Virus record (IMG/VR): IMGVR_UViG_3300025168_000032
Span: 1 to 64,000 of that record
Strand: one strand, 5' to 3'
DNA: 64,000 nucleotides
Source of the DNA: a virus
Notes under the pieces: model-generated
What the model saw: only the letters and a program-made list of their open reading frames with translations
Databases searched by the model: none
Told to the model about the DNA's origin: nothing
Made by a program: the position numbers and the translations under genes
Shown: positions 5,686-37,172 of the stretch, piece after piece
How the letters are laid out: each line of letters opens with the position of its first letter
Position numbering within the stretch: the stretch's first letter is position 1

Positions 5686-5693
5686 GAGAGCAA

Positions 5694-7324: not shown

Positions 7325-7349
7325 CAATTTTATCAAAACGTGCTATACT
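7321..7349 (+). promoter_or_regulatory. Sigma70-type promoter with extended -10
   Basis: TTGACA at 7321-7326, spacer of exactly 17 bases, TATACT at 7344-7349, with TGC immediately before the -10. Start of transcription is expected near 7356. The ATG at 7371 follows with GGAG at 7357-7360. This promoter heads the long run of glycan genes from 7371 onward. Confidence 0.87.
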
Positions 7350-7370
7350 ATAAAAGGAGAGTTAAGCTAA

Positions 7371-12617: not shown

Positions 12618-12619
12618 AC

Positions 12620-15792: not shown

Positions 15793-15794
15793 TC

Positions 15795-16340: not shown

Positions 16341-17493
16341 GTTTTCTTGGCCACTTATCAACGATAACATAACCCAGAAAGATAAGGAAGTGCTATCGGA
16401 TTTTATATTGAACACAAACAGATTCACGAACGGTCCCAAAGTCAAAGAGTTCGAGAAAGCGTGGTCTGAGTGGTTGGGTGTTAAGTATAGCGTGATGGTT
16501 GGTTCTGGTGCTGCTGCGAATTATATTACAACATCGATTGTTCGCGAGAAAAAGGGCCAAAAGGGCGAGATTATTGTACCTCCTATAGGATGGGTCTCCG
16601 ATGTGTCTTCTGTCATAAATACCGGCTTTACGCCCGTTTTTGTTGATGTCGACTTGGATACGATGGCAATTTCTTACGAGAATATCAAAAACGCGATCAA
16701 TAAAAATACAAAGGCTATTGTTTTAGTTCACGTTTTGGGATTCAACGGCATCAACGACAAGATTATTAAACTAGCTAAAGAAAACGATTTACTACTGATA
16801 GAAGATTGTTGCGAATCACACGGTGCGACACACAACGGTAACAAGGTCGGAACCATGGGAGATATGTCCTGTTTTTCATTTTATTTTGGCCATCACATGA
16901 CAACTATTGAGGGCGGTATGGTGTGCACAAACGATGAAGATATATACGAGTTTGCAAGAATGTTTAGATCCCATGGGATGACCAGAGAGGCTTCACTTGA
17001 AACTCAGAAAAAATATGCAAAGCCAGATGTCAATCCTTTGTTTACATTTGCAGTCCCCGGATACAACATGAGAAGCACCGAGCTTAATGCTGTGTTAGGC
17101 CTAGAGCAAATTAAAAGACTTGATGATAATATTAATACTAGATGTAATAATCTGGTAACGTGGGTTTCGAATCTAGATCCTGAGCTTTATTACGTTAATT
17201 TTCTAATGGATGGTAGTAGTAATTACGCTTTACCCCTGATATTGAATTACAATAATAAGAATATGAAATTAGTTTGTAGCATTCTGGAAAGCGAAGGAGT
17301 GGAGTACAGACTTGGTACTGCCGGTGGTGGCAACCAAGCAAGACAACCTTATTTAGAAAGGTACGAATATTCTGTGGTAGGGAAGATGAATAATACAAAT
17401 TATATACATGATTACGGTTTGTATATTGGGAACCACCCGGAATTAACTAAAAAACAAATTATAAATTTATGTGGGAGACTTAATGATGTTTGA
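16327..17493 (+). CDS. ColD/RfbH-type PLP-dependent ketosugar 3-dehydratase (DegT/DnrJ family)
   Basis: 388 residues from ATG 16327, with GGAG at 16317-16320. An ATG at 16315 in the same frame would precede the ribosome site. The fold family is the DegT/DnrJ/EryC1 sugar aminotransferases, but the PLP-lysine position holds His: SFYFGHHMTTIEGGMV, with His189 and His190, where aminotransferases have Lys before the EGG. His at this place is the mark of E. coli ColD and of RfbH/E1. These remove the C3 hydroxyl from 4-keto-6-deoxy sugars rather than transferring an amino group. With Gmd nearby, the likely substrate is GDP-4-keto-6-deoxymannose, giving a 3,6-dideoxy ketosugar. No RfbH-type iron-sulphur Cys motif was noticed, which favours ColD. 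Confidence 0.87.
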   Translation: MGQNKFSWPLINDNITQKDKEVLSDFILNTNRFTNGPKVKEFEKAWSEWLGVKYSVMVGSGAAANYITTSIVREKKGQKGEIIVPPIGWVSDVSSVINTGFTPVFVDVDLDTMAISYENIKNAINKNTKAIVLVHVLGFNGINDKIIKLAKENDLLLIEDCCESHGATHNGNKVGTMGDMSCFSFYFGHHMTTIEGGMVCTNDEDIYEFARMFRSHGMTREASLETQKKYAKPDVNPLFTFAVPGYNMRSTELNAVLGLEQIKRLDDNINTRCNNLVTWVSNLDPELYYVNFLMDGSSNYALPLILNYNNKNMKLVCSILESEGVEYRLGTAGGGNQARQPYLERYEYSVVGKMNNTNYIHDYGLYIGNHPELTKKQIINLCGRLNDV

Positions 17494-18445
17494 AAATAAA
17501 AAGGTTCTAGTCACAGGCGGAACTGGTATGATTGGTAGAGAGTTGGTAAACCTTTTGACTGCTCGTGGCGCTAAGGTGTTCATTTGTAGCCTAGACCAGC
17601 CAAAGGATATTCCGGAGGGTGTTTCTTTTGTATTTAAAGACTTAAGATACTTATCAAATTGCCTTGAGGTATGTAAGGGTATGGATTATGTTTTTAATTG
17701 TGCAGGAGTTAAGGGCTCCCCAAAGATGTGCATGGAGCAACCAGCAGACTTCTTTGTTCCAATGGTGCAGTTTAATACCAACATGATGCAAGCTGCCTTT
17801 GAGAATGATGTAGAGTGGTATTTATACACTTCTAGTGTCGGCGTGTACCACCCGGCTGAAGTCTTTAAAGAAGACGATGTATGGATGACTATGCCTTCTA
17901 AGAACGATTGGTTTGCCGGTTGGGCAAAACGCATGGGAGAATTACAAGCTAAAGCTTATTCTATTCAGCACGGGTGGGATAAAGTGTCTATTGTAAGACC
18001 AGCTAATGTTTACGGATCATATGACAACTTTGACCCCGACAACGCAATGGTTATTCCAGCTTTAATAAGAAAAGCATTCGAGAATGACAAGTTGAGTGTT
18101 TGGGGCGATGGGTCTCCAATAAGAGACTTTATTCATGCTAGAGATGTCGCATTGGGTATGATCCATATGGTAGAAAACAAGTTCACAAAACCAGTGAATT
18201 TGGGGTCCGGGGAGGGCATTAAGATCAAGCGTATAGCCGAAGCGATAGCAAACTATTTCGATAAAGAAATAGAGTGGGATGTTTCTAAGCCAACTGGCGA
18301 TGCTAGGCGGGTATTTGATATGACACGAGCAAAATCCTGTGGTTTCGAACCATCTGTGTCAATTGAAGAAGGAATAAGTGAAACCATTGAATGGTTTTTA
18401 GAAAACAAAGAAAACATAGATAAGAGATTTAATGCGTTCAAATAA
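17483..18445 (+). CDS. SDR-family NAD(P)-dependent sugar epimerase/reductase with altered active site
   Basis: About 320 residues from ATG 17483, with GGGAG at 17473-17477. A second ATG follows directly at 17486. The N-terminus has the Rossmann motif VTGGTGMIG. The middle has YTSSVGVY and the C-terminal half has PANVYGSYDNFDPDN and a GDGSPIRDF stretch typical of GDP-fucose-synthase/epimerase relatives. The active-site YxxxK is not canonical: the sequence is FAGWAKRMGE, so Ala145 stands where Tyr is expected and Lys149 is kept. It may use another residue or belong to a variant subfamily. It overlaps the genes on both sides. Confidence 0.85.
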   Translation: MMFENKKVLVTGGTGMIGRELVNLLTARGAKVFICSLDQPKDIPEGVSFVFKDLRYLSNCLEVCKGMDYVFNCAGVKGSPKMCMEQPADFFVPMVQFNTNMMQAAFENDVEWYLYTSSVGVYHPAEVFKEDDVWMTMPSKNDWFAGWAKRMGELQAKAYSIQHGWDKVSIVRPANVYGSYDNFDPDNAMVIPALIRKAFENDKLSVWGDGSPIRDFIHARDVALGMIHMVENKFTKPVNLGSGEGIKIKRIAEAIANYFDKEIEWDVSKPTGDARRVFDMTRAKSCGFEPSVSIEEGISETIEWFLENKENIDKRFNAFK

Positions 18446-19148
18446 TATACTAATAACAGGAGTCAACAGTGGATTGGGCAAATATATTCACAACCATATT
18501 AAAGGGTCCGTGGGTCTGCATAGGCAAAACCTAGGCGCTGTGCTCTCCTGTTCATCTATCGACACAATTATACATTGTGCTTTCGATGCGAAAAGAGAGA
18601 TAAATGACCACTATCAGTATTTTAATGATAATCTCTATCTCACAAAACAATTACTGGGGATGCCGCATCAAAAATTTATTTATGTATCATCTGTAGATGT
18701 TTATCGAGAAGAGCAATCATACTATAAGTTGATGAAACTTATGGCCGAATCTATAGTAAAAAACGAGAGTAAAAACTACATCATCGCAAGATGTTCAGCG
18801 ATGCTTGGAGAAGGAATGAGGAAAAACACTTTGGTAAAATTATCAGAAAAGAACCTTTTAAAAACTGGGCTTTCAAGTAAGTCTACTTTTAATTATGTTT
18901 TATATGAAGACATTTTGTCTTTTTTTAACAAGTCTATTGAAAATAATCTATCTGGTGTTTATAATTTGGTATCAAGATCCAACATATCTTTATCAGAGAT
19001 CGGTGAGCATTTTGAATATTATCCAAAATATGGAGATTTTCTATATAATACCCCTGTGGTAGAAAACAATATCCCATCTGATCTTTCCTCAATGGGACAA
19101 AGAACGTCACTTCAAAATATAAAGAGGTTTATAAAACAAAATGACTAA
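18432..19148 (+). CDS. SDR-family sugar epimerase/reductase, short
   Basis: 238 residues with ITGVNSGLG as a degenerate Rossmann glycine motif and YVSSVDVY and YYKLMK as the SDR Ser and YxxxK active site. It is shorter than extended SDR sugar enzymes (300-340 residues), and the C-terminal substrate-binding part looks reduced. It may be a reductase that acts last on a 4-ketosugar, analogous to RmlD or ColC, but this is inferred from position alone. It overlaps the genes before and after it by 14 and 8 bases. Confidence 0.8.
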   Translation: MRSNNILITGVNSGLGKYIHNHIKGSVGLHRQNLGAVLSCSSIDTIIHCAFDAKREINDHYQYFNDNLYLTKQLLGMPHQKFIYVSSVDVYREEQSYYKLMKLMAESIVKNESKNYIIARCSAMLGEGMRKNTLVKLSEKNLLKTGLSSKSTFNYVLYEDILSFFNKSIENNLSGVYNLVSRSNISLSEIGEHFEYYPKYGDFLYNTPVVENNIPSDLSSMGQRTSLQNIKRFIKQND

Positions 19149-20091
19149 AAAGAAAATTTTAATTTGTGGAGCAACAGGGTTTATTGGAAAAAATTCCTTA
19201 GAACGCTTCACACGGAGAGAAGACTACGAAATAAGAGCAGTTTATCACATTAAGCCGCCTCTTAAAGAATATGATGTTGAGTGGGTCCAAGCTGATCTAA
19301 ACAATATAGAAGATGTTAAAAGAGTTATAAAGGGGATGGATATTGTACTACAGTTAGCTGCAACTACCTCTGGTGCAAATGATATTATTAATCGTCCGTA
19401 TATTCATGTTACTGATAACGCTGTTATGAATTCTCTGCTTCTACGAGAGGCATTTGAGAACGATATAAAGCATTTTATTTTTCCAAGCTGCACAGTCATG
19501 TACCAGCCGAATAGAGTTGCAACTAAAGAAAGTAATTTTGATGGAAATCAAAGGCTATTGTCTAAATACTTTGGCGTTGGCAACACCAAAGTGTATATCG
19601 AAAAAATGTGTGATTTTTATGGCACCTTGGGTAAAACAAAACACACAGTATTAAGACAGTCCAATATTTACGGCCCTCATGACAAATATGATCTGAAGAA
19701 AAGCCATGTCTTCGGCGCGACCATAACCAAGGTTATGACCAACGACGAAAAAATTAATGTTTGGGGACCCGGAACCGAAACAAGAGACTTTTTATATGTT
19801 GATGATCTTTTGAACTTTGTAGAAATGGCTCTTGAAAAACAAGAATCCATGTGTGAGGTTTTTAATGTTGGCTGTGGATATGAGGTTTCGATCAAAGAGT
19901 TGGTTGAAAAGATTATTAAAATTTCCGGCAAAGATCTTAAGATGGAACATGACCTCAGCAAACCTCATATTCCGACAAAACTCTTTCTAGATTGCACAAA
20001 AGCTAAGGAAATGCTCGGATGGGAACCAAAGGTATCTTTAGAGGAAGGTATTAAAAGAAGTATTGATTGGTGGAAGGCCAATAATGACTAG
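19141..20091 (+). CDS. SDR-family GDP-L-fucose synthase-like epimerase
   Basis: 316 residues with the Rossmann motif ICGATGFIGKN, HFIFPSCTVMY as the catalytic Ser strand, and HVFGATITKVM plus WGPGTETRDFLYVDD in the substrate half. It resembles the GDP-L-fucose synthase (Fcl/WcaG) branch of the extended SDRs. The Tyr and Lys are in KVYIEKMCDFY, where Tyr152 lies three rather than four residues before Lys155, so the canonical YxxxK spacing is altered. Together with Gmd, the gene that follows, it may complete synthesis of a GDP-6-deoxy sugar. It overlaps both neighbours. Confidence 0.87.
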   Translation: MTKKKILICGATGFIGKNSLERFTRREDYEIRAVYHIKPPLKEYDVEWVQADLNNIEDVKRVIKGMDIVLQLAATTSGANDIINRPYIHVTDNAVMNSLLLREAFENDIKHFIFPSCTVMYQPNRVATKESNFDGNQRLLSKYFGVGNTKVYIEKMCDFYGTLGKTKHTVLRQSNIYGPHDKYDLKKSHVFGATITKVMTNDEKINVWGPGTETRDFLYVDDLLNFVEMALEKQESMCEVFNVGCGYEVSIKELVEKIIKISGKDLKMEHDLSKPHIPTKLFLDCTKAKEMLGWEPKVSLEEGIKRSIDWWKANND

Positions 20092-21091
20092 GGCTTTTAT
20101 AACCGGAATCACTGGAATGGTCGGGTCACACCTTGTTGATTTTCTATTCAAAAATACAGATTGGGATATTTATGGCTTAGTTCGATGGGATGACAGGATG
20201 GATAACCTTGAGCATTTAATGAATTATATAAATGGAAAACATAGAATTCGTTTGGTTTATGGTGATATAAACGACCTAAGTTCTTTGTTGACAGCCTTTG
20301 GTTCAAGCAAGCCAGACTATGTTTTCCATTTAGCCGCACAAAGTTATCCGAAAACCAGCTTTGATTCTCCTTTGGAGACGTTGGAGACTAATATTCTGGG
20401 AACTGCAAAAGTTTTAGACGCGATAAGACACCTGAAATTAGAACCGACAATACATGTTTGTGCCTCGTCGGAAGTTTTTGGAAGGGTTCCAAAAGAGTTT
20501 CTACCAATTCACGAGGATGTAACATTCCACCCAGCGTCACCGTATGCAATTTCAAAGGTTGGGACAGATTTGGTTGGTAGATTTTACGCTGAGGCATATG
20601 GAATGAAGGTTATGACTACTCGTATGTTTACACATACAGGCCCAAGGCGTGGTGATGTTTTCGCTGAATCCACTTTTGCTAAGCAGATAGCAATGATTGA
20701 GGCAGACTTAATACCGCCAATATTGAAAGTAGGCAACTTAAAATCCCTAAGAACTTGGTCAGATGTTAGGGATGCGGTTAGGGCATATTACAGCTTGGTA
20801 ACAGTGAATCCAATAGCCGGGGAATACTATAATATTGGTGGATCATATACCTGTTCTATCGAGGACATGTTGAATTATTTATTAAGCAAATCTACCGTTA
20901 GCACCATTCAGGTGAGAGTGGACCCCGATCGTTTGAGGCCAATTGACGCAGACTTGCAGGTACCTGACACCACTAAGTTTAGAAACCACACTGGCTGGGA
21001 GCCAACTATTCCTTTCGAAAAAACTATGGATGATCTTTTAGAATATTGGAGAGGGAAAGTAAAGTCAGGTAGTAATTTTTTATCAAGGTAA
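20084..21091 (+). CDS. gmd: GDP-mannose 4,6-dehydratase
   Basis: About 335 residues from ATG 20084, with GGAAGG at 20072-20077. An upstream TTG at 20063 would start within the ribosome site. Extended SDR features are ITGITGMVGSHL, HLAAQSYPKTSF, ASSEVFG and SPYAISKVGTD (YxxxK intact), then RMFTHTGPRRGDVFAES and RTWSDVRDAVRAY, which match Gmd rather than RmlB or GalE. It should convert GDP-mannose into GDP-4-keto-6-deoxymannose, the branch point to GDP-fucose, GDP-rhamnose, GDP-perosamine and, through ColD, GDP-colitose. This fits the ColD-like and Fcl-like genes just upstream. It overlaps the previous gene by 8 bases. Confidence 0.92.
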   Translation: MTRAFITGITGMVGSHLVDFLFKNTDWDIYGLVRWDDRMDNLEHLMNYINGKHRIRLVYGDINDLSSLLTAFGSSKPDYVFHLAAQSYPKTSFDSPLETLETNILGTAKVLDAIRHLKLEPTIHVCASSEVFGRVPKEFLPIHEDVTFHPASPYAISKVGTDLVGRFYAEAYGMKVMTTRMFTHTGPRRGDVFAESTFAKQIAMIEADLIPPILKVGNLKSLRTWSDVRDAVRAYYSLVTVNPIAGEYYNIGGSYTCSIEDMLNYLLSKSTVSTIQVRVDPDRLRPIDADLQVPDTTKFRNHTGWEPTIPFEKTMDDLLEYWRGKVKSGSNFLSR

Positions 21092-21095
21092 CACA

Positions 21096-21833
21096 ATGAA
21101 ATCAGATATTTTAGTTATTGGCGAAACATGTACCGATGTTTTTTATTATGGGGAGTGTGACAGGCTTTGTCCAGAGGCCCCAGTGCCAGTATTTGTTCCA
21201 ACTGAAATAATAAAGACACCCGGCATGGCAATGAATGTTCAAAAAAACATACAATCTTTATATGGAAGTTGCGATATACATACGAATACCAACTGGAAAG
21301 ACATAACAAAAACAAGGTTTATCCACCTCAATACTAATCAAATGTTTGTGAGAGTTGACGAGAATGATCACACTGTAAAGAGATGCGATGTAAGCAAGGT
21401 TGATTTAAATAAATACAAGATTGTTGTCATTTCAGATTATTGTAAAGGCTTTTTAACCGAGAGTGACATCAGTTATATATCTGATAATCATAATTGTGTT
21501 TTCTTGGACACAAAGAAGGTTTTAGGAGATTGGTGTACTGGGGTGAGGTTCATAAAAATTAATCATTATGAGTACAACAAGTCCAAGGATAGAATACCAG
21601 AAAACGTAAAAGACAAATTAATAGTAACTTTGGGCCCCAAAGGTTGCAAATACAAGGATAAGGTATATCCTGTAAGAAGGGTCGACATAAGGGATGTTTC
21701 GGGTGCGGGTGACACTTTCCTCTCTGGGCTTGTGGCCGAGTATCTAAGAACATCGAATATAGAATCTTCTATAAGTTATGCTAACGAGTGTGCTACAATA
21801 GCAGTACAAAAAAAAGGGGTCACTGTAATATGA
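21096..21833 (+). CDS. PfkB-family sugar kinase, HldE kinase-domain-like
   Basis: 245 residues with the ribokinase/PfkB fold. The N-terminal ILVIGETCTDVFYYGECDRLCPEAPVPVF closely resembles the HldE (RfaE) kinase start. The C-terminal DVSGAGDTFLSGL has the GAGD anion hole at 203-206 with the catalytic Asp206. It is shorter than the HldE kinase domain (about 315 residues), mainly in the middle. HldE kinase phosphorylates D-glycero-D-manno-heptose 7-phosphate at C1. The next gene encodes the matching nucleotidyltransferase and overlaps by four bases, so this is a split HldE-like pair. Confidence 0.87.
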   Translation: MKSDILVIGETCTDVFYYGECDRLCPEAPVPVFVPTEIIKTPGMAMNVQKNIQSLYGSCDIHTNTNWKDITKTRFIHLNTNQMFVRVDENDHTVKRCDVSKVDLNKYKIVVISDYCKGFLTESDISYISDNHNCVFLDTKKVLGDWCTGVRFIKINHYEYNKSKDRIPENVKDKLIVTLGPKGCKYKDKVYPVRRVDIRDVSGAGDTFLSGLVAEYLRTSNIESSISYANECATIAVQKKGVTVI

Positions 21834-22219
21834 AAGTTATTTGGGTAAATGGTTGTTTTGATATTCTACACCGAGGCCATGTAGAGTTATTTAAGTATGC
21901 CAAATCACTGGGAGAGTTTTTGGTGGTAGGTATTGATGGGGACAAGAGAATCAAAGAAACCAAGGGCCCCGAAAGGCCCGTTAACAATCGTCGAGATCGA
22001 CAATTCTTTCTTGAATCAATCAGATATATCGACGAGGTGGTCGCTTTTGATAATGATACAGAGCTTGAAAATTGGATCGAGTTTTTTCAACCAGACGCGC
22101 TAGTTGTCGGTGTCGAGTATAAAACTAAGGGAGTCATTGGTTCAGAGCATGCAAAAAAAATTGAATATTTTGATCGAGTAGGAGAATATTCAACAACAAA
22201 CATATTGGAGAGAAAATGA
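21830..22219 (+). CDS. HldE-like cytidylyltransferase-fold nucleotidyltransferase
   Basis: 129 residues from ATG 21830, in an ATGA overlap with the kinase gene. An open frame runs upstream of 21830 but overlaps the kinase. The opening VNGCFDILHRGHVELF has the HxGH nucleotide-binding motif. Later GVEYKTKGVIGSEHAKKIEYF and EYSTTNILE (ISTTxI-type motif) match the adenylyltransferase domain of HldE. It should make an ADP- or similar nucleotide-activated heptose from the kinase product. The same fold is used for glycerol-phosphate and other activations, so heptose is likely but not certain. Confidence 0.9.
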   Translation: MKVIWVNGCFDILHRGHVELFKYAKSLGEFLVVGIDGDKRIKETKGPERPVNNRRDRQFFLESIRYIDEVVAFDNDTELENWIEFFQPDALVVGVEYKTKGVIGSEHAKKIEYFDRVGEYSTTNILERK

Positions 22220-22533
22220 CATATGTAATAGACATAGATGGGACCATTTGTACAAATACGGATGGGGATTACAAGAACGCGAAACCCATTGTAGAGAGAA
22301 TAAACAAAATCAACAAATTATACGACGATGGCAACATTATATATTTTTTGACTGCAAGGGGTATGGGGAGATTTAATAACAATTCCGAATTGGCAACTCA
22401 TAGCTTTCTATCCTTAACAAAGCAACAGCTAGACAGTTGGGGAGTGAAATATCATGAGTTATTTATGGGTAAGCCCTCTGGTAACTTGTATATAGATGAC
22501 AAGGGGGTGAAAGATGAAGACTTTTTTATCTAA
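22216..22533 (+). CDS. HAD-family phosphatase
   Basis: 105 residues, ATGA overlap with the gene before. HAD motif I is VIDIDGTIC (nucleophile and acid Asp residues near residues 5 and 7). Motif II is in IYFLTARGMGR, motif III Lys is likely in MGKPSGN, and motif IV in YIDDKGVKDEDFF. It is very short with no cap domain. Similar small HAD proteins accompany capsule and O-antigen genes. Lying behind the split HldE pair, it could supply the GmhB-type heptose bisphosphate phosphatase step, but GmhB proteins are longer (about 190 residues) and carry a zinc loop not seen here. Confidence 0.85.
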   Translation: MTYVIDIDGTICTNTDGDYKNAKPIVERINKINKLYDDGNIIYFLTARGMGRFNNNSELATHSFLSLTKQQLDSWGVKYHELFMGKPSGNLYIDDKGVKDEDFFI

Positions 22534-22879
22534 TGATATTAAATTTGTACCAAAAGGGTGGGGATTTGAAAAGTGGATTGTGAACTGCGAAGAGTATTGT
22601 GGAAAGCTTTTGTATTTTGTGAAAGGCAAGAAGTGTTCGTGGCATTACCACAAGCTTAAGGACGAAGTTTTTTATATTCAGTCTGGCGCGATTACGCTTT
22701 CCTATTCAGACGATGATGACTTGGGGAATGCCAAAAAGGTAATTTTGCAAAAAGGAGATAGATTTCACATCTATAGGGGATTGAGGCATCAAATGTATGC
22801 TATGGAAGACACAGAACTGTTTGAGTTTTCAACTCAACATTTTGATAGCGATAGCCATAGGGTTATAAAGGGAGATTAA
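22514..22879 (+). CDS. Cupin-domain sugar isomerase-like protein
   Basis: 121 residues forming a single cupin barrel. CSWHYHKLKDEVFYIQSG gives the cupin motif 1 (two His and a Glu for metal). KGDRFHIYRGLRHQMYA gives motif 2 with its His. This resembles the C-terminal domain of type II mannose-6-phosphate isomerases and other small sugar cupins. It may help supply mannose phosphate for GDP-mannose or isomerise a ketosugar. It overlaps the HAD gene by 20 bases and is followed with no gap by the epimerase gene. Confidence 0.85.
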   Translation: MKTFLSNDIKFVPKGWGFEKWIVNCEEYCGKLLYFVKGKKCSWHYHKLKDEVFYIQSGAITLSYSDDDDLGNAKKVILQKGDRFHIYRGLRHQMYAMEDTELFEFSTQHFDSDSHRVIKGD

Positions 22880-23746
22880 ATGAAAACAGTATTAGTCACA
22901 GGTGGTTGTGGTTTTATAGGAAGCAATTTGGTAGATATCTTGGTAAAGCAAGGTAACAGAGTGGTAGTCATAGATGACCTATCAGACGGAAAAAAAGAAA
23001 ACTGCAACAGGTTAGCTAAATATTATTTTGATGATTTTAAAAAGATCCTAACAAATGGTCTTGATGAGAGCATAGATACTATTTTTCATTTAGCTGCTGA
23101 GGCAAGAATACAACCATCTTTCAAAAAACCATTATACACTTGTGAAAACAATTCATATGGAACAGCAATTGTGTGCGAATATGCAAGAAATAACAACTGC
23201 ATGGTCGTATATGCTGGGTCAAGTTCGTTTTACGGTGGCGTTTACCTTAACCCATATGCTTTTGCAAAATGGCAAGGGGAAGAGGTTGTAAAGATGTACA
23301 CTAATGTTTATAATATAAAATCTGGTATTGCTAGATTTTTTAATGTATATGGACCTAGAAACCCGTTGATCGGTCAGTATACCCCTGTAGTCGCCATATT
23401 CGAGCAACAATATAGTAATAATGTACCTCTGACAGTGGTAGGTACAGGTGAACAAAGAAGAGACTTTACGCATGTATACGACATATGTAACGGATTAATA
23501 GCGATATCCAAGAAGGATAGAGAAGCCTCAATATTTAATTTGGGAACTGGCACCAACCACTCTATCAATGAACTGGCAGATATGTTCGGCAGGGAAAAGA
23601 AGCATCTACCAGCCAGACCCGGAGAGGCGAAAGAGACAAGAGCAGATATATCTAACTCCATAAAGGTTCTTGATTGGGCCCCGGAGCACAAATTAGAAAC
23701 ATATATAAATAATTTTTTAAAGGAGACAAAAAATGAAATTAAGTAA
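22880..23746 (+). CDS. NAD-dependent sugar epimerase/dehydratase, GalE-like
   Basis: 288 residues with intact extended SDR features: VTGGCGFIGSNLVD, HLAAEARIQPSF, a GSSSFYGG catalytic Ser strand and PYAFAKWQGEE with YxxxK. It continues with RFFNVYGPRNP and a GTGEQRRDFTHVYD stretch, as in UDP-glucose or UDP-GlcNAc 4-epimerases. A Shine-Dalgarno AGGGAG precedes the ATG. The last gene of the glycan cassette, it overlaps the first small phage gene at 23733. The substrate is probably a UDP- or GDP-sugar, unknown in detail. Confidence 0.9.
   Translation: MKTVLVTGGCGFIGSNLVDILVKQGNRVVVIDDLSDGKKENCNRLAKYYFDDFKKILTNGLDESIDTIFHLAAEARIQPSFKKPLYTCENNSYGTAIVCEYARNNNCMVVYAGSSSFYGGVYLNPYAFAKWQGEEVVKMYTNVYNIKSGIARFFNVYGPRNPLIGQYTPVVAIFEQQYSNNVPLTVVGTGEQRRDFTHVYDICNGLIAISKKDREASIFNLGTGTNHSINELADMFGREKKHLPARPGEAKETRADISNSIKVLDWAPEHKLETYINNFLKETKNEIK
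23704..23711 (+). promoter_or_regulatory. Possible T4-type late promoter
   Basis: TATAAATA, the exact T4 late -10 consensus, lies 21 bases before the ATG at 23733, at the junction between the glycan cassette and the gp55 region. The motif occurs once more on this strand inside a gene (48888-48895), and AT-rich DNA yields it by chance, so this is weak evidence. Confidence 0.3.
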
Positions 23747-24178: not shown

Positions 24179-24563
24179 TTTAACAGTGTGGTTAGTAATA
24201 GCCATTTTAATATCCATAACGGCTAATATTTTCGCTCTTTGGTACATAAGGCGACTACTATCCAAGTTGTGGTTCATAGCCGAAAATTTGGGCGATTTGG
24301 TCGATCTATTGACTAATTACAAAGGCCATCTCAAAACACTCTTTGAGCTTGAAGATTATTATGGAGACGAAAATATTAAATTTGTCTTGTCTCATACTTC
24401 AAGTTTGTTGGAAGTTTTGGAAGAATATGAAGATATTTACAACATTGTCGAATACGACGAAAATTCTGAAGACGAACAACAAAAGGAAATTGAACAAGAT
24501 GCCGAGGAAACGATCCAAGAAGAGAATGTATTTTACGCAGGTTCACGAAGACGCGATAGTTGA
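24168..24563 (+). CDS. Small membrane protein with acidic tail
   Basis: 131 residues with one N-terminal transmembrane segment (WLVIAILISITANIFALWYI, about residues 8-27), a short basic turn, then a helical cytoplasmic part and an acidic Glu/Asp-rich end. I do not recognise it. It overlaps the late sigma gene by 65 bases in another frame, so the two are likely translationally coupled. Confidence 0.72.
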   Translation: MTINLTVWLVIAILISITANIFALWYIRRLLSKLWFIAENLGDLVDLLTNYKGHLKTLFELEDYYGDENIKFVLSHTSSLLEVLEEYEDIYNIVEYDENSEDEQQKEIEQDAEETIQEENVFYAGSRRRDS

Positions 24564-25185
24564 ATACTCAAGAACAAACTGCAACAAGGTAAGAACTAGA
24601 TTATATGTTGAATTGATACAGCCAGCATTTAATGAAATGGTAGACAAAATTGTGTTTACTTATAAATTTACTACATTACCTAATATTGATGAGTTGAGAG
24701 ACGAGTGCAAAGTCTGGTTAACAACTATTTTAGATAAATATGACCAAAGTAAAGGCTCCAAGGCTTTTTCTTACTTTTCTGTAATAACGAAAAACTGGTT
24801 TATTCACAAGGTCAAACAAACCGCTAAGCGCAATAAAAGAGAAGTCGATTATGAAGATGCTTTAAAGGAAGTCGATGAGGACAAGGTTGTATGCTATAAT
24901 CCATATTTGATGGAAAGAGAGCAAAAAGATTTCTGGAATAAATTACATTTCGAAATTAATAGCTGGGAAATAGATGATATGAAAGAGAACGAAAGAAAAG
25001 TTTATAATGCTGTTAGGGTCATCTTGGGATCGGTTGAAAACATAGAAATTTTTAATAAAAAAGCCGTTTATTTGTATTTGAGAGAGATAACCGGCTTAAA
25101 TACCAAGCAAGTGGTCTCTCAGCTTAACAAACTGAGAACCAAATACCGTACATTCAAAGAAGATTGGGATGAAGGTAAAATTTAA
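24499..25185 (+). CDS. gp55: Late-transcription sigma factor, T4 gp55-like
   Basis: 228 residues from ATG 24499, with AAAGGAAA a few bases upstream. A longer open frame begins upstream at 24343 but its first 50 residues are out-of-frame coding for the membrane protein. The core, FTQVHEDAIVEY, LYVELIQPAFNEMV, DECKVWLTTILDKYDQSKGSKAFSYFSVITKNWF and KQTAKRNKR, matches the gp55 family, which has a minimal region-2-like helix pair that recognises TATAAATA -10 elements. It recruits host RNA polymerase to late promoters with gp45 and gp33. This gene is the strongest proof of a T4-like phage. It also predicts that the tail genes following it are late. Confidence 0.93.
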   Translation: MPRKRSKKRMYFTQVHEDAIVEYSRTNCNKVRTRLYVELIQPAFNEMVDKIVFTYKFTTLPNIDELRDECKVWLTTILDKYDQSKGSKAFSYFSVITKNWFIHKVKQTAKRNKREVDYEDALKEVDEDKVVCYNPYLMEREQKDFWNKLHFEINSWEIDDMKENERKVYNAVRVILGSVENIEIFNKKAVYLYLREITGLNTKQVVSQLNKLRTKYRTFKEDWDEGKI

Positions 25186-25206: not shown

Positions 25207-25500
25207 ATGTCAAAAAAAGTTGATAGTTTTATAAATGAGGCGATAGACAACATTCGTGATGATCGAAAGATAACTCGTGAACTGTTGGATGACGCTATTA
25301 AGTGGCTTGCAAAAGATGAAGCTCGCCACAAAGAAGTCGGAATTATTATTTCGAAATATGTAGAAACCCTACAGAGATCAAATGAGCAACTTGTTAAAGT
25401 TGTCAATCTTATTAGCAAAAAAGAAGTATCCGAGGGGTTATCTGAAAATGATATGTCTCAGATATATGATATGATATCGAAAGGGGATATTGAAGAATGA
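25207..25500 (+). CDS. Small helical phage protein, unknown function
   Basis: 97 residues, almost all helical (EAIDNIRDDRKITRELLDDA, then KYVETLQRSNEQLVKVVNL). No Shine-Dalgarno stands out before the ATG. It lies between the late sigma gene and the hub genes and overlaps the latter by ATGA. A late-transcription cofactor (gp33-like size and place) or a baseplate-assembly factor are both possible; nothing in the sequence decides it. Confidence 0.7.
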   Translation: MSKKVDSFINEAIDNIRDDRKITRELLDDAIKWLAKDEARHKEVGIIISKYVETLQRSNEQLVKVVNLISKKEVSEGLSENDMSQIYDMISKGDIEE

Positions 25501-26888
25501 CAAAAAGGATACAGAACAAGATCACCAATAGATTTGATTCTATATCAGATCCCTATGGTCGAAAAGAGACCAGAGATTCTATGGTATTTGATTTTGTCCA
25601 AAATGAGCTTTCTAATCCATACACAGACACTCAGTGTTTTGGTGTCATATTAATGATCGAAACCCAAGGTATATTGGGACCTGACGGTTCGACCTTGCCA
25701 ACAACCCCCAACCCAACTCATCCATTCGTTATCACTGCTAGGGTGCGCCCTCTTGAGCCCATGATCGAAGCTCAGGCTTTAGACGAGCCTTGCAAATTCA
25801 AAAGCGATCCTACTGCGCTGTATGAAAATTTAATGCAACATCCCATCGCATATTCCGAAACCCTAGATGGTGATGAGAGTTTGTTTATACCAACTGTCGG
25901 TGATGTCGTTCCGATTTATTATGACTTAGAAGGCCCGACCTCGCAAGGAAAAAAGAGAGGGCTGAGATTTAAAATGCAAAGAGTCAGGAGAGCAGAAGGC
26001 GGTTTTGATGCAACATGCTTAGCAGCGCTTGGAACCAAATTAATTGACGGAAAAATTTCATTAAGCAGAGTCGGAACCCCAGTATCAGTTATTGGTGTTG
26101 CTGGTGCTGGTGCTGCTGGAGCAGCAGGTTCTTACGGAGGAGCAGGTGCTGGAAATGCACAACAGGTGTTGATTCCATTCTTGGACTGCAAATTCGCAAC
26201 TAAAGGGTTTCAAGCTTCAACATTTGGAAAAGGAGACAGGGTAAAAAAGAAACAAATCAAACATGTTGTTTTGCACTCCACAGCCGGCAGTACTGGAAAC
26301 GGTAAGGCAAAAAGTACGATTGGCAGATTTTCTAGAACGCCAATTACAACAGGGTTTACAGACAAGAGTAAACCCAAAGGTCAACGGAAAAAGAATCCAC
26401 CATGTTCAGATTACGCACCCGGTCCACCATTTGATCCTCATAAGATGCCCCATGGGACAATTTGCCGAGAAAGAAAAGGAAAAAAAGGAAGACCAGCAAA
26501 ATACACTGTCGAAAAGAGAGTAAACACATCTATTCACTATGCATGCGATCAGGGAGGAAATATAATCCAAGGCTTGAACGAACGCCACAGAGGCTGGCAT
26601 GCCCCCGGTATGAATAAAACTTCTGTTGGAATTGAAATGTGCGGAGATCCCGGAAAGGGCAAAGGGCAAGGCGCAACTCCTAAATATGCTTCTATGTACA
26701 ATGAAAAACTTTTAGGAGCATGTGCGAAATTAGTAAAAGATATTTGCAAAAGGCACGGTTTGTCAATTAATAGAGATACCATTCGTGGACACGAACAGTC
26801 TAGCACGAATAGATCTGACCCCGGAGATAAAAAGAATCCCGGAGCATGGGATTGGGATGATTTCCTACAAAGAGTAAGGAGGGCATAG
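25497..26888 (+). CDS. gp5-like baseplate hub protein with N-acetylmuramoyl-L-alanine amidase domain
   Basis: 463 residues in two parts. Residues about 10-200 form the hub domain, with OB-fold features (TQCFGVILMIETQG, PFVITARVRPL, FIPTVGDVVPIYYDLEG), as in the OB domain of T4 gp5. A Gly/Ala-rich linker follows (about 200-222). Residues about 255-463 are an Amidase_2 domain: VVLHSTA with zinc ligand His260, SIHYACDQGGNI, GWHAPGMNKTSVGIE, RGHEQ (His432) and SDPGD (Asp441). It should cut the bond between MurNAc and L-Ala during entry through the periplasm. It is the first of two tandem paralogues. T4 gp5 has a lysozyme here instead. The ATG overlaps the stop of the preceding gene. Confidence 0.9.
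   Translation: MTKRIQNKITNRFDSISDPYGRKETRDSMVFDFVQNELSNPYTDTQCFGVILMIETQGILGPDGSTLPTTPNPTHPFVITARVRPLEPMIEAQALDEPCKFKSDPTALYENLMQHPIAYSETLDGDESLFIPTVGDVVPIYYDLEGPTSQGKKRGLRFKMQRVRRAEGGFDATCLAALGTKLIDGKISLSRVGTPVSVIGVAGAGAAGAAGSYGGAGAGNAQQVLIPFLDCKFATKGFQASTFGKGDRVKKKQIKHVVLHSTAGSTGNGKAKSTIGRFSRTPITTGFTDKSKPKGQRKKNPPCSDYAPGPPFDPHKMPHGTICRERKGKKGRPAKYTVEKRVNTSIHYACDQGGNIIQGLNERHRGWHAPGMNKTSVGIEMCGDPGKGKGQGATPKYASMYNEKLLGACAKLVKDICKRHGLSINRDTIRGHEQSSTNRSDPGDKKNPGAWDWDDFLQRVRRA
25531..26097 (+). repeat. Direct duplication, copy 1 of hub N-terminal domain
   Basis: 567 bases encoding the hub OB-fold region. It aligns without any gap to 26921-27487 at a fixed offset of 1390 bases. Several stretches of 15 or more bases are identical between the copies, such as the one that encodes FIPTVGDVVPIYYDLEG. 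The similarity ends at the Gly/Ala linker. Confidence 0.93.
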
Positions 26889-26892
26889 ACGA

Positions 26893-28416
26893 ATGAGTTT
26901 TAGTAAAAAAATGACTAACAAGTTTGATTCTATATCAGACCTTTATGGCAGGAAGGAAGCTAGAGATTCTTTGATTTTCGACGCTATGGTAAATAGCCTT
27001 TCTAGCCCGTATGGAGATACGCAGCTTTTTGGCGTTATATTGATGATCGAAACCCAAGGCATATTGGGCCCTGATGGCACAACCTTGCCGACGACCCCTA
27101 ATCCGACTCATCCATTTGTTATCACTGCTAGGGTTCGTCCACTCGCCCCATCAGCAGAGAGTTTTAATTTAGATGAGCCTTGTAAATACAAGAGCGATCC
27201 TACCGCATTGTACGAGAATTTGATGCAGCACCCAATTGCTTATTCTGAAACCTTAGATGGCGATGAGAGTTTATTTATACCAACTGTCGGTGATGTCGTT
27301 CCGATCTATTATGATTTGGAGGGCCCTACATCTTCTGGCAAGAGGCGTGGACTCCGTTTTAGAATGCAAAGAGTCAGGAGAGCAGAGGGTGGTTTTGATG
27401 CAACATGCATAGCAGCCTTGGGGGCGAAACTTGTAGATGGAAAAATTTCATTAAGCAGAGTTGGAACCCCAGCATCAGTTATTGGTGCTGGTGGTGCTGG
27501 GGGCGTAGCAGGAGCCGCAGGTGCTATAAGTGGCGCCGGAGTTGGAGCCACCCCCGGAACCCTTTCTCCTGCTACTCTAGCAGTGTGGCCAAGCGGAGTT
27601 ATAGGTGTAAAGAAAGGAGAAAAAGTGACTGGGGCCCCACGAGGGGTTTTCAAACAAGCAATGGCAAGAAGGGCTTGGTGGATGAACAAAGCTAATAATC
27701 CAAGATACCCACAAGTAGGGGCAAACAAATCAGGGAGAGATGTGAAGACTATAAAAAAGCCAAATCTTTTAACAATTGTTGACGGCACAAAGTCGAGAAA
27801 TGAGAAAAATTGTTGGACATATGATTTGAGTGTCGGAACAGACGGGGTCAAAGGTATTCTAGTCTCGACTTACAGTGGTATTGGTAGAGGAAGCTTTAGT
27901 CCCGGTGCTCCATACGCGCCTACAAAAAAAACAAAGGGTCCGGCTGTTGATTATAACAACGGAAACAATTCCACTAGCGCTGGTATGAAAATATTTGGTA
28001 GAAAACGAACTTTTAAGAAAAAAACAAATGCTTCCATTAGAGCGTTACAAATTTGGGGTATCGAACCGTGGAATTCACTCGAAGACAACAGGGGGGCCAT
28101 TGCCCACGAAACAGCACGAAAAGGAAGCCGAGCGGTTTCTTTTGGTTGTTTAGCTACGCATGGAAATGTTCTAGATCCTACTGACTCTGTACATTTTCAC
28201 GCTTGGGAAATTTGGAAAGGTGGGTCTTGGGTATATTTTTATAGCGGTCACACCGATGAATCAAAAGCTGGTAACGTTTACTGGCATAAGGGCCCCGGCA
28301 ATCCCATAAAGTCGGGAGAAAATAGAAAAACTTGGGATTGGAGTCAACCCCAAGGTGGACACTCAGCCCCGCCTCCAAAACCACCCCGAAAGAAGAAAAA
28401 GAAGAAAAAGAAATAA
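26893..28416 (+). CDS. gp5-like baseplate hub paralogue with L,D-transpeptidase (YkuD_2-like) domain
   Basis: 507 residues. The first about 200 repeat the OB-fold hub domain of the preceding gene with few changes. After a Gly/Ala linker the C-terminal part is unrelated to the amidase. It resembles the YkuD_2 type of L,D-transpeptidase: VSTYSGIGRG, NGNNSTSAGMKIFG, SIRALQIWGIEPWN, AIAHETAR with His405 and SFGCLATHGN with Cys419. His and Cys 14 residues apart with the S-x-G-C motif fit the Cys-nucleophile active site. Such enzymes make or break 3-3 and related peptide links in murein. The protein ends in a run of lysines. The family call is by motif order and should be treated as probable. Confidence 0.8.
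   Translation: MSFSKKMTNKFDSISDLYGRKEARDSLIFDAMVNSLSSPYGDTQLFGVILMIETQGILGPDGTTLPTTPNPTHPFVITARVRPLAPSAESFNLDEPCKYKSDPTALYENLMQHPIAYSETLDGDESLFIPTVGDVVPIYYDLEGPTSSGKRRGLRFRMQRVRRAEGGFDATCIAALGAKLVDGKISLSRVGTPASVIGAGGAGGVAGAAGAISGAGVGATPGTLSPATLAVWPSGVIGVKKGEKVTGAPRGVFKQAMARRAWWMNKANNPRYPQVGANKSGRDVKTIKKPNLLTIVDGTKSRNEKNCWTYDLSVGTDGVKGILVSTYSGIGRGSFSPGAPYAPTKKTKGPAVDYNNGNNSTSAGMKIFGRKRTFKKKTNASIRALQIWGIEPWNSLEDNRGAIAHETARKGSRAVSFGCLATHGNVLDPTDSVHFHAWEIWKGGSWVYFYSGHTDESKAGNVYWHKGPGNPIKSGENRKTWDWSQPQGGHSAPPPKPPRKKKKKKKK
26921..27487 (+). repeat. Direct duplication, copy 2 of hub N-terminal domain
   Basis: Second copy of the 567-base hub segment described at 25531-26097. The alignment has no insertions or deletions. 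The sequence beyond 27487 diverges into a different murein enzyme domain. Confidence 0.93.
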
Positions 28417-29367: not shown

Positions 29368-32300
29368 ATGTCAAAAACTCCCATATGTGCGCCAATAGCG
29401 CCATTGCCAAAGCCCGACCCAAAGGCCCCATGTCCAACTTGTTTACCAGACAAGACCTTTGTTGAGCCAACGTGGCACACAACAGAATCCCCTTATTTAA
29501 ACAGGAAAACCTGCGAGTATATGGTATCGGTAACCGTTAACAGTCGTGGGGATTCGCACACAACAAGCTCAGTCAAAAAAGCTGGATTGCCTTTTAAAAA
29601 GTTGTTGAAAACCTACATAAGACCCGGCCTTCGGGAATTATTAAGATATTTCGACAAATTAGAAAATGATGAAATAGTGTGTGCGTCTTATACAACAGAA
29701 CAAGGCGGAATAAAATCTGTTTCCATAGGCATGGAAGGGCCCAAGCCCAAGGTCAAAGTCAAATCAAAATCTTCTAAATACGCTTTTGATAAAGAGTGTA
29801 GGGAGATCTTAGATTTCGATTATTCTGAATTTATAAAAATCAAAAACAAACCATCCACATTGCAAGGCGACAGTGTTCACAAGATATATAACATCGACGA
29901 ACAGATAAGACAAAAATACCCACAGATAAAAAATATAAATGCTATTGAGTTATATGCTAGAGCTATAGACTACCATTTTACTGGATACGGTGAAAGCGTA
30001 ATGAAAGTATTAATAGCAATACCTGCATTTATATTTGATCAAGTACCGGAGGCCCCAGACTTACCAGACGTAGATGTCAGCGCTGAGAGATTATTCATTT
30101 CTCCAAGAAGGTTACACACCGACATTACTCGGTTGAAAGAAGTGTTGTTATCTTTTTCTCAATATCAAGCATTTTTCTATCGCTACCAGAATGGGACTTT
30201 ATATTTTAAAGACACAGAGACAACAGAAGAGTCAGACGAAGCAGAGACCAGTGACCCGCTAAAGAAAGTAGGGAAAAAGTTTTATATAAAATTTTATGTT
30301 AAAAGATTAGAACTTTTCGAGAATGCGCTAGAAAAACTTCTCAAACAGAACGGGTTCACATATAGTACATTTCTTAATAGAAGAACCTCAGACATGCCTT
30401 GGAGAATAAAATTTGTTTTTGACAAGAGCGACGAAAAGCGCCCTTTTACTCTTAAGAGAGTGGGGGTGAAAATAGAAGGTTGTTATTACAAAAAATTAGG
30501 AAAAGGCCTGTCATCTTTTCTCAAAAAAGGACTGATACAAGACCAAACCCTAATGGGCTTAATAGCAAATATAAAAGATATTAGGAGTGATCTGGACGCC
30601 CGAGAAACGCCCGGATGGCTAGATTTTTGTTTAAAGTATATCTATCCCAATTTGGGAGTAAACTATGGCTCAAAAGACAAATATAAAGAACAAACAGCAG
30701 TTAATTGCTTAGGGGATAAACTTGGATTAAACGGAATCGATGATTTCGTACACAATGCTGTAGGGGAGTTCACGGATTTGTTCGCATATCAGTTTAACAA
30801 AAACCAATGTCGCGCCCTAGGGCAAAAACTTCCGGAAATCGACTTGTTTGATTCATCCGGAGGCATTCAGGACAAATACATTGATGAGTGGTATAACAAC
30901 AAATACGCAAAAATCGGTGAACCATCCATTCTAGAAGAAATGCTAAAGGATATAAAAAGTAATTGGGATAATGTAAACAAGTCAGAGGACAAATTGAAAA
31001 ATCTTATGGGGGCGTTAAATCCTTGTAATTTTTTCCAGCTTGGGCTAAAGGCCATACAGTGTTTGATGTCTGGTATGTCCTTCGAGGCCTCTATGAGGAT
31101 CATGGCTAAAAAGGCCTTATCAACAATGGCTAGTGATGCTTTGGAAAAAGTTATGGAAGCTTTACCATACGACAAGCAAGAAGAAATAAGGAAAATGGTG
31201 GAAGACAAATTTGGAAATATGCCTGCTCCTTGGGAGCAGGGGTATAAGCCCGGTAGCTTTGATAAAGTTATTGACAAGAGGACTGCTGACGGGATAGCTT
31301 CGAAAGAAAAAGCAGCAAATGAAATGTTGGATAATCAGAGCGATGCTGTAACGAAAATGAAAGAACTAAACAAAAGGGTGGAGGAGTTAGCCACTTGTCT
31401 TGAAAATCCAAACATCTGTACGCGAGACGGGAAATTGAGACCCCCTCCGCCACCAGTAGTCGCAGTTTATCCACCATTGACATATGTCGAAAACATGAGA
31501 AGGGGCGATCAAGGAGCAAGCGTGACAGCCTTACAAGTAGCTTTGGTAACGCTAGGACACAAATTGGTCCCAGATGGGGATTTTGGTAAAATAACCAGAA
31601 ACGCCCTGAAAGCATATCAGAGATCTGCAAAAATACTGGTTGATGGGATTGCTGGTCCACAAACAAGAGGCAGTATAAATTCAGCTTTAGCAGCTAAAGC
31701 ACAAGCGGAAAATGACAGTGAGGCCCCTAACGAAGACCCAATAGTTATTAACAAGCCAAACTCTACAGAAAAACAAGTTCTTGAATCGTCGGGTGTTGTA
31801 CAGGGATCTACCGATAGTTTATACGGTGATATTCTAAAGGAACTTATGGATGCTCACAAGCAAACAAACACAAGTGTACAAAACACAGAGCGAGAATTGA
31901 AAGAAGATGAACAGAAGTTAGAAAATCTAAAGGGCAAGCTAAGGAGCGTTGGCGAGGAACAAGAGCAAAAACAAAAAGATTTGGAAGCGGCTAAAGCTAA
32001 AATGAGGGCTTACATGAACCAACTTGAAATAGACTGGTTTGATTATGGCGGTATCAAGACAATGACCGCTTGGCAGAAAGTGGAGGTGAAAGATCTCCAA
32101 GACAAAATAGACGAAGCACTACAGGCAACGGCCAAATTGGAACAAGATTATAATAAGATGTTGCCCGGTATCGAGTATTTGGAAAAGAGAATTCTAAAAA
32201 AAGCCGCAGCCGTAAAAGCAGCATACGAAAAAAGAACAGAATCATATGATACTGCTATGAATTTAGAGAAAATGGTAGACGACAAGATAAAAGAATTACA

Positions 32301-35300
32301 AGGAGAGTGGTTTACGAAGAGAACTGAGTTGCAATTGGCGATGGCTGAACAGGCTAAAAAGTATTCAGCCAATGATACAACGTTAAATGAAGAATCTGGG
32401 CCGTATGCTAACTGGAATGATCTCTCGGAAGATGAAAGGACGTCCCTAACCGCAAGAGAGAGAAACAAACACGACGACAGAATCATGAAAGGTGTAAGTC
32501 CAGACGATCCTGATTTCGAGCAAGGCACCTATGGTAAAGCCTTGGGGGATATCCAATCAGCAGTAACATCGGCATATGTGGAAGCAATAATGGAGACTGC
32601 GGAATTACAACAACTTATGGGTATACTTAACAAACTCCCCGGAGTTAAGCTTATTGGTTCTTTCCTTGCGGGTTTGAAGTGCCCCTTGCCAAGTTTTATC
32701 TACCCTCCATTATCAAGTTTTCTTGGAACGTTGACTCTTGATCCTTGTGGCCCCGGCAAAACAAGGATATCCTTTGGTGAGCTTCCAAAACTGCGAAGCT
32801 TTAACGGTTGGAATTTTTTAAATATATTAAAAAATGCTTTTGTAGATGCTCTTTTGCAGGTAGTAACCGAGATAATGTTTGCTATAATTTTTAAGCTGGC
32901 TTCTATTGTGTTTGACGTAACATGCCAGACTTTAGCAGCCGCAGGTCAAGCCGCTTTTAAAGGAATAGTTGGTGACAGCGGATGGAGAAACGCGGTAGAC
33001 GATTTCTTTTGTGGCAAAGACAAGCCTGAAGACGAGCGTGATGATCACGCTGCGCTGGTTTTAAAAACAGCCGTCCCTCAAATACCCGGAGATGCCAAAG
33101 ATCTGGCTAAGACGATGTCTGTTATCGGTACTAAATCTGAATATGCAAGAGCAATCACTTCCCTACCAGAAGACCAAGATATGGGTTTTATGAAAAATCT
33201 ATCTTCACTTATAGTTGCAAACCACCCAGAGTACGCACTGACTATGGGAACTCCTGAAATGCTCGTTATGTTCTTTTCGCAGGTAGGAAACCTTTTAACA
33301 GCAGACCAGATTGTCCAACTGAGAGATTCTTTAGATTTTGAGTCGGAAATTCCTCTAGATGACAGTATATGTTTGACAGACGATGAACTTGACCAATGGG
33401 CTCAGGATAGAGAAGACGCATTAACAAACGCAGGATTAGATCCTCAAATAGCAAAAGATTTTGTTGCGAGGCAAGATGAAAGAAGGAAATCGGATTTGGC
33501 AGATATAGCAGATATTCTATCACAATCACCAGAGGGAATGCTAGAGAACGCCTTGAACGAAGCGCTTGGTGCAAGTGATCCTGATCCGGGTTGTGACGTC
33601 TCCAAGTCAGCAGTACAATTAGAGAAAATAGAGCAGGTCAAAGATGCTGTCGGTAAAGCTACCAAGGGCATGTTCAAGAGGTTAGAAAAGGCCTTTTTCG
33701 ATGATATAATTCTGTGGCGCTGGCCAATGGACCCAAGGTCATGGAATGACACACCGGGAATTCTAAGCACCATATTGGCAGATACACAGGGGTATACTTT
33801 AAATTTCCACAATATAGCAAGAAACAATATCTTTTTTAAAACATCTAACTTTGTTACTTTTGGTTTTTATCCTAAGTACGAAGAGTACCCCGAGACAGTC
33901 GGGATAAAGTTCAGAGAAGCCCTTTTGGAAACCAGCTTTAAGTCAGAAGGCACTAAGACCAAAATACCAATTAAGTATGATATTACTGATGACTATTCTT
34001 GGAAAAGTGTGATCACGTTGACGGACGAATTCAAAGAGACAAACGACCTTGGTCAAGAAGTCTACCCTCGTGCGTTCGATTACAAATTCAAACAAAAATC
34101 ACCAGAAAACATACTAGGTACGTTTAGGGTTGAAAAACCTTTGGGCCCCGATAATAAAGACTATCAAAAATATAAACTGTTGCCTTCTAACGGACAACTT
34201 GGAAAAAGTGATTTCAGAGGTTTGGTGATGAAGAACCTGTTGAACAACTGGGTCTATAAAGATTTTAACAATGTAGATATTGATGAGTCCGAGGCAAGGT
34301 CTCTGATGTCTAAATTGCAGAACATTGTAAATACAAAATTTGTAGCTTCTCTAATGAGCGTTGATGGGAATATCCCATCTGGTTTCCTCCACGGTAGTAA
34401 AAACCAAGAAATAAAAGCAGAACACCTTGAATATGTTGCCCCGGATGGGGCAGAATACGATTTTGAAGAAACAGACGCAGTTTTCGGAAGAGCAAAGTCT
34501 GGAAACGGTAGGGTCAAGTTCCTAGACCCTGCTAAGTATGGTGGAGACTATACTTCACCAAGTATTTATATTTCACCCCCTAAAGACGAAGGTTTGATGC
34601 AAATTGCGAGGGTTTTTGTTCCGCATATTTCGGAGGGGTGTAACCCAGATTTGTCAAAGTCTCATTTTTTAAAATTGGATCAAATAAAAGAAATTATAGA
34701 TGCTGCGAGAGCCGGTATGAAACCCCATAAGAAGTTGGAATTTTCCCCTGAGTGTGTAAGAGAATTCCCATTTGATAAAATAGCTTCTCCTGCCACTCTT
34801 GCTTCACTAGAAGGGGTCGTTATAGCCACCATAAGAGTATATCTGGCAGACTTTTTTGCCAAAACGATGCCTATTTGGTCAAGCATTTCTTTGGTTTCTT
34901 TGGTCAACAACGCTGAGAACTATGATGAATTGCTACCAGAGTATATTGTCATGCTTATGAAGCGAGGTCTTTCTAGCGAGAAGTCCATCTTTTCTCGTGC
35001 TACTTATGAGGCTTACCCGTATTGGCTTTTATTCTTGGAGCAAGCGGCTCAAGTTGTGCAAAGGAGAGTGAAGAACGGCTCCATAGAAGAGACAACAGAT
35101 ATTAAAGAGGCCTTTGATACTATCAACGAACTACAAAATCAACATGTTGTTGCGAGTCCAAAAGATTTGATACTTGTGGCAAAATCATACGATGGAGATG
35201 TAAAGGTCAACAATTTCGCAAATGATTATTTGGCAGAATCGATTGTTAAGGGTGGGGCATTGATAGGTGGCGTTATGGAACGTGGAGAGTTGCCTTCTGG

Positions 35301-36792: not shown

Positions 36793-37172
36793 TGGCCAAT
36801 TTAACAGTAAGATTCCCGTTAGAACAAACAGGAAAAAACACAGGCTTTGATTTACTTTCTAGTGAAGATATAAGGGATTTGGTCAAATTTAATATCAAAA
36901 ACACCCTCTTGACATGTCCGGGCGAACGCACATTTGACAGCGAGGACTTTGGGGCTTGTTTGAGAAAAATATTATTTGAATACCCAACTGCATCTGTTTT
37001 AGACACAGCAGCTTCAGCGATAAGAAAGCAATTGGGGATATTCGTTCCGTATATTGTTTTAGAGGATGTTGATATCACAAACCCGGACAATATGGTAGCA
37101 CATGTCAGGCTACTATACTATATAAATGAAATAGAGGCTAGAGACGAACTGTTAATTAGAGTCAGAGTATAA
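36792..37172 (+). CDS. gp25: Baseplate wedge protein, gp25/W-like
   Basis: 126 residues with the GPW_gp25 fold: FDLLSSEDIRDLVKFNIKNTLLT, GERTFDSEDFGACLRKILFE and a helix ASAIRKQLGIFVPYIVLEDV. Gp25 forms the conserved core of contractile-injection baseplate wedges and resembles lysozyme only in name. It starts at the stop of the giant protein (TAATG) and is followed after 51 bases by the gp6-like gene, the order found in T4. Confidence 0.93.
   Translation: MANLTVRFPLEQTGKNTGFDLLSSEDIRDLVKFNIKNTLLTCPGERTFDSEDFGACLRKILFEYPTASVLDTAASAIRKQLGIFVPYIVLEDVDITNPDNMVAHVRLLYYINEIEARDELLIRVRV

Follow-up and report, generated by a model that had tools for sequence, protein, structure and literature searches.

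Described tail-tip systems and the P1/P2 locus

In phage T4, gp5 is the tail lysozyme and spike and is bound to gp27 in the baseplate hub. It is a homotrimer that carries an OB-fold, a lysozyme, and a beta-helix in one chain (PMC3004832). The present analysis concerns two adjacent genes, P1 and P2, in a 64,000-base stretch of viral DNA (the window), which is positions 1-64,000 of the 185,652-base virus record IMGVR_UViG_3300025168_000032. P1 and P2 probably encode paralogous tail-tip (spike/hub) subunits of a T4-superfamily contractile phage, with different wall enzymes, at a slot that evolves by duplication and exchange, and their products would most likely form one mixed trimer. Like T4 gp5, each would be a tip protein with an OB-like N-terminal domain and a murein-degrading domain, encoded in a T4-type genome near gp25 and gp6. 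T4 has a single gp5, whereas two to three tandem paralogs were found here, and the T4 gp5 families gave no sequence match. An earlier note on this DNA had set the locus against the single lysozyme-bearing gp5 of T4. That contrast was right, and the layout differs further, since the needle of gp5 is in the same chain while here the enzyme comes last and a separate gene, P3, follows.

Other described systems share single traits with the locus. The spike gp25 of Anabaena phage A-1(L) has an N-terminal helix and an OB-fold (PMC10966104), the same outline as the model obtained here, and its tip also combines two wall-degrading activities; in A-1(L), however, both are on one hub chain (gp15), whereas here they would be on tandem spike paralogs. 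In the type VI secretion system (T6SS), an evolved VgrG set can contain as many as three spike paralogs, some of them ending in an effector domain, but these sets belong to a bacterial secretion system and VgrG fuses gp27-like and gp5-like parts. A heterotrimer has been proposed for VgrG1-3 of V. cholerae, Aeromonas dhakensis required mixed effectors and not mixed VgrGs (PMC8668125), and mixing of VgrGs was argued against in another T6SS (PMC4924876). In pelagimyophages, gp5 is reported among the most divergent structural genes, which was read as adaptation to the host wall, and the available part of that report mentions no tandem paralogs in the gp5 clusters (PMC7029224). Dual wall activity on a single chain of a phage tip and paralogous enzyme-bearing spikes are already known, from A-1(L) and T6SS respectively. 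No account of a phage group in which spike paralogs recur in tandem and swap their enzymes turned up in the literature searched, which does not prove that none exists.

Duplication of the N-terminal domain

The P1 open reading frame (ORF) spans 25497-26888 (463 residues) and that of P2 spans 26893-28416 (507 residues), with a gap of 4 bases and a Shine-Dalgarno-like leader before each gene. As the earlier note had described, the adjoining genes share a gapless segment of 567 bases at an offset of exactly 1390, beginning at 25515 and 76.9% identical, and from 26127 onward their nucleotide identity falls to background (25-37%). An independent repeat finder returned two families at the same spacing of 1390 (300 nucleotides at 82% and 239 nucleotides at 75%). 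The alignment of both N-terminal regions that the note had suggested showed a shared domain of about 195 residues with 84% protein identity over 191 aligned codons. Synonymous divergence (Ks) was 1.39, nonsynonymous divergence (Ka) 0.125, and Ka/Ks 0.09. A protein identity of 84% at this Ks and Ka/Ks indicates an old duplication in which both copies are kept by purifying selection. A chance repeat or a misassembly was ruled out by the 23% nucleotide divergence together with the same Ks and Ka/Ks values.

The N-terminal assembly domain covers residues 1-200 of P1 (25497-26096) and residues 1-198 of P2 (26893-27486). A Gly/Ala-rich linker follows in each, at 26097-26162 in P1 and 27487-27558 in P2; past residue 200 or so the two proteins continue into C-terminal domains unrelated to each other. 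The AlphaFold2 model of the N-terminal domain (80 sequences; mean predicted local distance difference test score 74.5) showed two helices (residues 2-39) followed by a beta-barrel (about residues 45-165), which is consistent with an OB-like fold. The description of the shared segment as an OB-fold would apply to this beta-rich part, but the segment is more than that, as it opens with the two helices.

C-terminal domains of P1 and P2

The C-terminal domain of P1 (26229-26885) is clearly predicted to be a zinc N-acetylmuramoyl-L-alanine amidase. Pfam Amidase_2 matched residues 339-444 with an E-value of 8.8e-22 (78.3 bits against a cut-off of 26), and all three zinc ligands named in the earlier note (His260, His432, and Asp441) were present, with an insertion of about 70 residues after the first.

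The C-terminal domain of P2 was harder to place, with no convincing match in Pfam, NCBIfam, PHROGs, or the PDB. The only match in the phage collection was an annotated murein L,D-transpeptidase (E 1, 81% coverage), and by eye the domain resembles YkuD_2. P2 lies beyond the reach of the Pfam model for YkuD_2, so a profile was built from 14 proteins of YkuD_2 type, the first of which had been found via P2 itself. On hhalign this profile matched P2 at 27751-28248 with a probability of 87.6% over 139 columns, and His405 and Cys419 aligned with its invariant His and Cys columns. The same profile scored at most 3.3% on the other 105 slot proteins of the survey described below, and the P2 domain reached 12.6 bits, while the highest score among 1000 shuffles was 5.3. 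The proposal of a Cys-type L,D-transpeptidase (LDT)-like domain with these two residues was thus borne out, and we take the domain as a divergent LDT-fold enzyme of YkuD_2 type. An M15-, M23-, or amidase-type enzyme was ruled out, as no such family matched. With regard to the cutting of two bond types that the earlier note had proposed, the activity of the P2 domain may be that of a carboxypeptidase or a transpeptidase instead of an endopeptidase. The LDT-type Cys/His enzymes Tlde1a and DpaA, which trim or cut murein and do not only cross-link it (PMC9638812, PMC8263019), are of the same type but act as free effectors or periplasmic enzymes, without fusion to a tail-tip domain.

It is unlikely that the P2 domain is a non-catalytic LDT-fold remnant serving as a murein binder or spacer. 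Such a remnant would agree with the failure of every curated model to recognise the domain, with the reading AHET where the YkuD_2 family has H-G/S, and with P2 being the only LDT-type carrier among the hub proteins surveyed; the retained His, Cys, and S-x-G-C motif argue against it. The C-terminal end of P2, where P1 differs, is a lysine run, KKKKKKKK (28384-28413).

The slot in related phages

For P1, P2, the N-terminal domain alignment, and the P2 C-terminal domain, no full-length relative was found by direct searches of IMG/VR, GTDB contigs, phages, and plasmids, and an indirect route was therefore taken, from gp23 to synteny and then to the upstream sigma-like gene as anchor. Of 325 sigma-anchored loci, the best 80 were examined. 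The slot was readable in 79, and these together with the window make up 80 loci, which fall into 69 groups at 85% identity. The usual order was the sigma-like gene, a small protein of about 100 residues, one to three hub genes, P3, and a long protein. P3 (28435-29358 in the window) followed the hub genes in 78 of the 79 loci; in the remaining one, L189, the contig ends before it.

Most hub genes in the slot carried a wall enzyme. Among the 96 proteins surveyed, the families were VanY (24), Phage_lysozyme2 (8), M23 (7), Amidase_2 (7), M15_4 (6), SLT (3), DUF2272 (3), and others, some proteins matching more than one family. Tandem paralogs of the N-terminal domain were present in 11 of the 69 groups, the window included: three had two copies (the window, L147, and L182) and eight had three (L114, L133, L160, L163, L167, L171, L175, and L189), while four copies were found in none of the 69. 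The enzyme domains of the tandem groups include M15, M23, SLT, lysozyme, amidase, DUF2272, and phosphatase-like types, and one of the three copies in L171 has no enzyme. L125, L166, L178, and L180 were excluded from the count, as their additional ORF lacks the N-terminal domain.

The phylogenetic tree of the N-terminal domains grouped the copies by genome in eight cases, with support of 97-100 in all but L114 (83, with long branches), whereas the copies of L160, L163, and L175 grouped by position. This clustering indicates about nine separate duplications, some of which gene conversion could mimic, together with one triplet retained through divergence. Within the L160/L163/L175 clade, N-terminal domains at the same position were 63-73% identical, while the position-2 C-terminal domains showed background identity whichever pair was compared (20-24%). 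At the third position, an M15-like domain is common to L160 and L163 (53%), and L175 has a glucosaminidase-like one (22-27%). As the N-terminal domains are alike by position and the C-terminal domains drop to 20-29% (all position-2 pairs, and L175 at position 3), this clade is read as domain exchange on a constant carrier. The duplication and domain exchange that the earlier note had postulated are thus seen as the P1/P2 repeat in the window and as outright exchange in this clade.

At L133:9303-10628, L147:6922-8418, L160:6925-8226, L163:6925-8259, and L175:6925-8394, the tail-tip N-terminal domain is joined to a tyrosine/dual-specificity phosphatase-like domain that carries an HCxxGxxR motif (Pfam E-values from 0.03 to 5e-5), a chemistry not expected at a phage tip. 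In L114, the first of the three hub genes (L114:3699-5168) includes a domain of SGNH/GDSL-like hydrolase type (Pfam E 0.026), possibly a deacylase. In L178, the sigma-like gene and the hub gene are separated by a gene that reads as tubulin/FtsZ-like (L178:4891-5970); the slot proteins gave a single Tubulin match (E 1e-7).

Likely location at the tail tip

P1 and P2 are likely to be located at the tail tip, as indicated by gene order, the OB-like fold, the fused enzymes, and the presence of a separate endolysin-like gene with peptidoglycan-binding and Amidase_2 domains elsewhere in the genome (L008:3362-4270; genome 143362). A role of P1 in lysis is unlikely because of this gene. We infer that both proteins are catalytic and probably parts of the virion. 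It is unlikely that only one paralog is the structural tip and the other an accessory wall enzyme, bound at another site of the virion or unbound in the cell, e.g., for lysis. The extra wall-enzyme genes without the shared N-terminal domain in L125 and L166 would suit such an arrangement, but both paralogs keep the whole N-terminal domain under strong purifying selection, and the endolysin-like gene is again a point against it.

Several results weigh against a gp5-type tip. Gp5_OB, Gp5_C, and Phage_base_V gave no match at E-values up to 10 in the whole record. The best Foldseek matches of the N-terminal domain model, ribosomal uS12 and TDRD3, both of which we take to be OB-fold proteins, were non-significant (E 0.02, TM-score 0.3). 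The P3 model had no fold match in the PDB and was not recognised as a needle, and the survey itself covers part of the sigma-anchored loci. Since no gp5, gpV, or VgrG model matches the N-terminal domain, the basis for the term "gp5-like hub" used in the earlier note is the gene order, the fold, and the fused enzymes; a tail-tip location is likely, but membership in the gp5 sequence families is not supported.

The P1 and P2 chains end with the enzyme domain, and neither has a C-terminal beta-helix needle in the same chain. P3 is a possible needle or spike protein: in a profile comparison it weakly matched the C-terminal portion of proteins that fill this slot as one chain in Flavobacterium phage immuto and Microcystis phage Mel-JY01 and that look by eye like OB plus needle. 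With this weak match and no fold match, P3 as a proven beta-helix needle was not established.

Assembly and proposed mechanism

Two or three paralogous candidate spike proteins with different C-terminal domains per genome were found in the window and 10 other groups. In the proposed mechanism, the N-terminal helices and OB-like domain would serve as the assembly domain, placing both P1 and P2 in the spike, and the slot would have evolved by tandem duplication of this domain followed by enzyme exchange. Tail contraction would bring the tethered enzymes to the periplasm, where the amidase and the L,D-transpeptidase-type activity would loosen the murein locally by attacking it at two places, the glycan-peptide bond (P1) and the stem peptide or cross-link (P2). 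The copies would co-assemble in one mixed trimer, the most likely form because none of the sampled relatives exceeds three copies and a spike of gp5 type is a trimer; taken as a claim of its own, the mixed trimer is put forward tentatively, at somewhat less than an even chance. The "two tips" that the earlier note had offered beside it found no evidence.

It is rather unlikely that each virion carries either a P1 or a P2 homotrimer, in a mixed particle population that hedges against differing host walls. The 84% identical assembly domains could fit the same site equally well, and homotrimer-only behaviour was concluded for two VgrGs of one T6SS (PMC4924876); hedging, however, would not be expected to give a three-copy ceiling or the conserved triplet order of L160, L163, and L175. 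If the mixed trimer is extended to the wider group, a T4-like group would build a heterotrimeric spike in which envelope enzymes are swapped like cartridges on a constant assembly domain, and one needle would attack several bonds at once, e.g., with a phosphatase, a glycosidase, and a peptidase in relatives. This wider reading is possible, but we hold it with slightly more doubt than confidence.

Genomic setting

The capsid protein, portal, prohead protease, sheath, and wedge genes of the record are of T4 type. The window's gp23 has hundreds of relatives in IMG/VR, with identity up to 72%, and its best matches among deposited phages were an uncultured phage, Flavobacterium phage immuto, Microcystis phage Mel-JY01, and Rhodothermus phage RM378. 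The features of the cluster, from the sigma-like gene to the gp6-like gene, all lie on the plus strand. The sigma-like gene that anchored the survey (24343-25185 by ORF bounds, the true start probably being later) weakly matched a PHROG late sigma factor (E 0.013), and its product is 60-75% identical to relatives. It is followed by a conserved small protein of 97 residues (25207-25500), which overlaps the start of P1 and has a counterpart of about 95-110 residues at the same place in relatives. Between P3 and gp25 lies a gene for a protein of 2474 residues (29368-36792) with a peptidoglycan-binding domain at residues 715-767 (PG_binding_1, E 9.9e-13). A gp25-like baseplate wedge protein (36792-37172; PHROG baseplate wedge E 2.6e-6, Pfam GPW_gp25 E 3.7e-4) and a gp6-like baseplate wedge subunit (37224-39026; PHROG baseplate wedge E 3.8e-15) come next.

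Directly upstream of the sigma/hub cluster is a long gene run (5676-23746) that by eye is of sugar-nucleotide and glycosyltransferase type, and similar genes are upstream of the cluster in L109 and L110. ClpS (62044-62364; Pfam E 3e-29), ClpP (L008:2736-3350; Pfam E 2e-38), and a GroEL-type chaperonin (L008:5778-7343; Pfam E 1e-62) are also encoded.

Significance

If the mixed-trimer reading is true, three-fold tips can be asymmetric and multi-enzyme, unlike homotrimeric spikes such as T4 gp5. The locus would then be the phage equivalent of the heterotrimers proposed for VgrG and a phage test case for the debate on whether VgrG trimers are mixed in type VI secretion, with a test set of 11 phage groups, three of which have a positionally stable triplet. 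The slot would also provide a natural collection of wall enzymes, carried like cartridges on a single domain.
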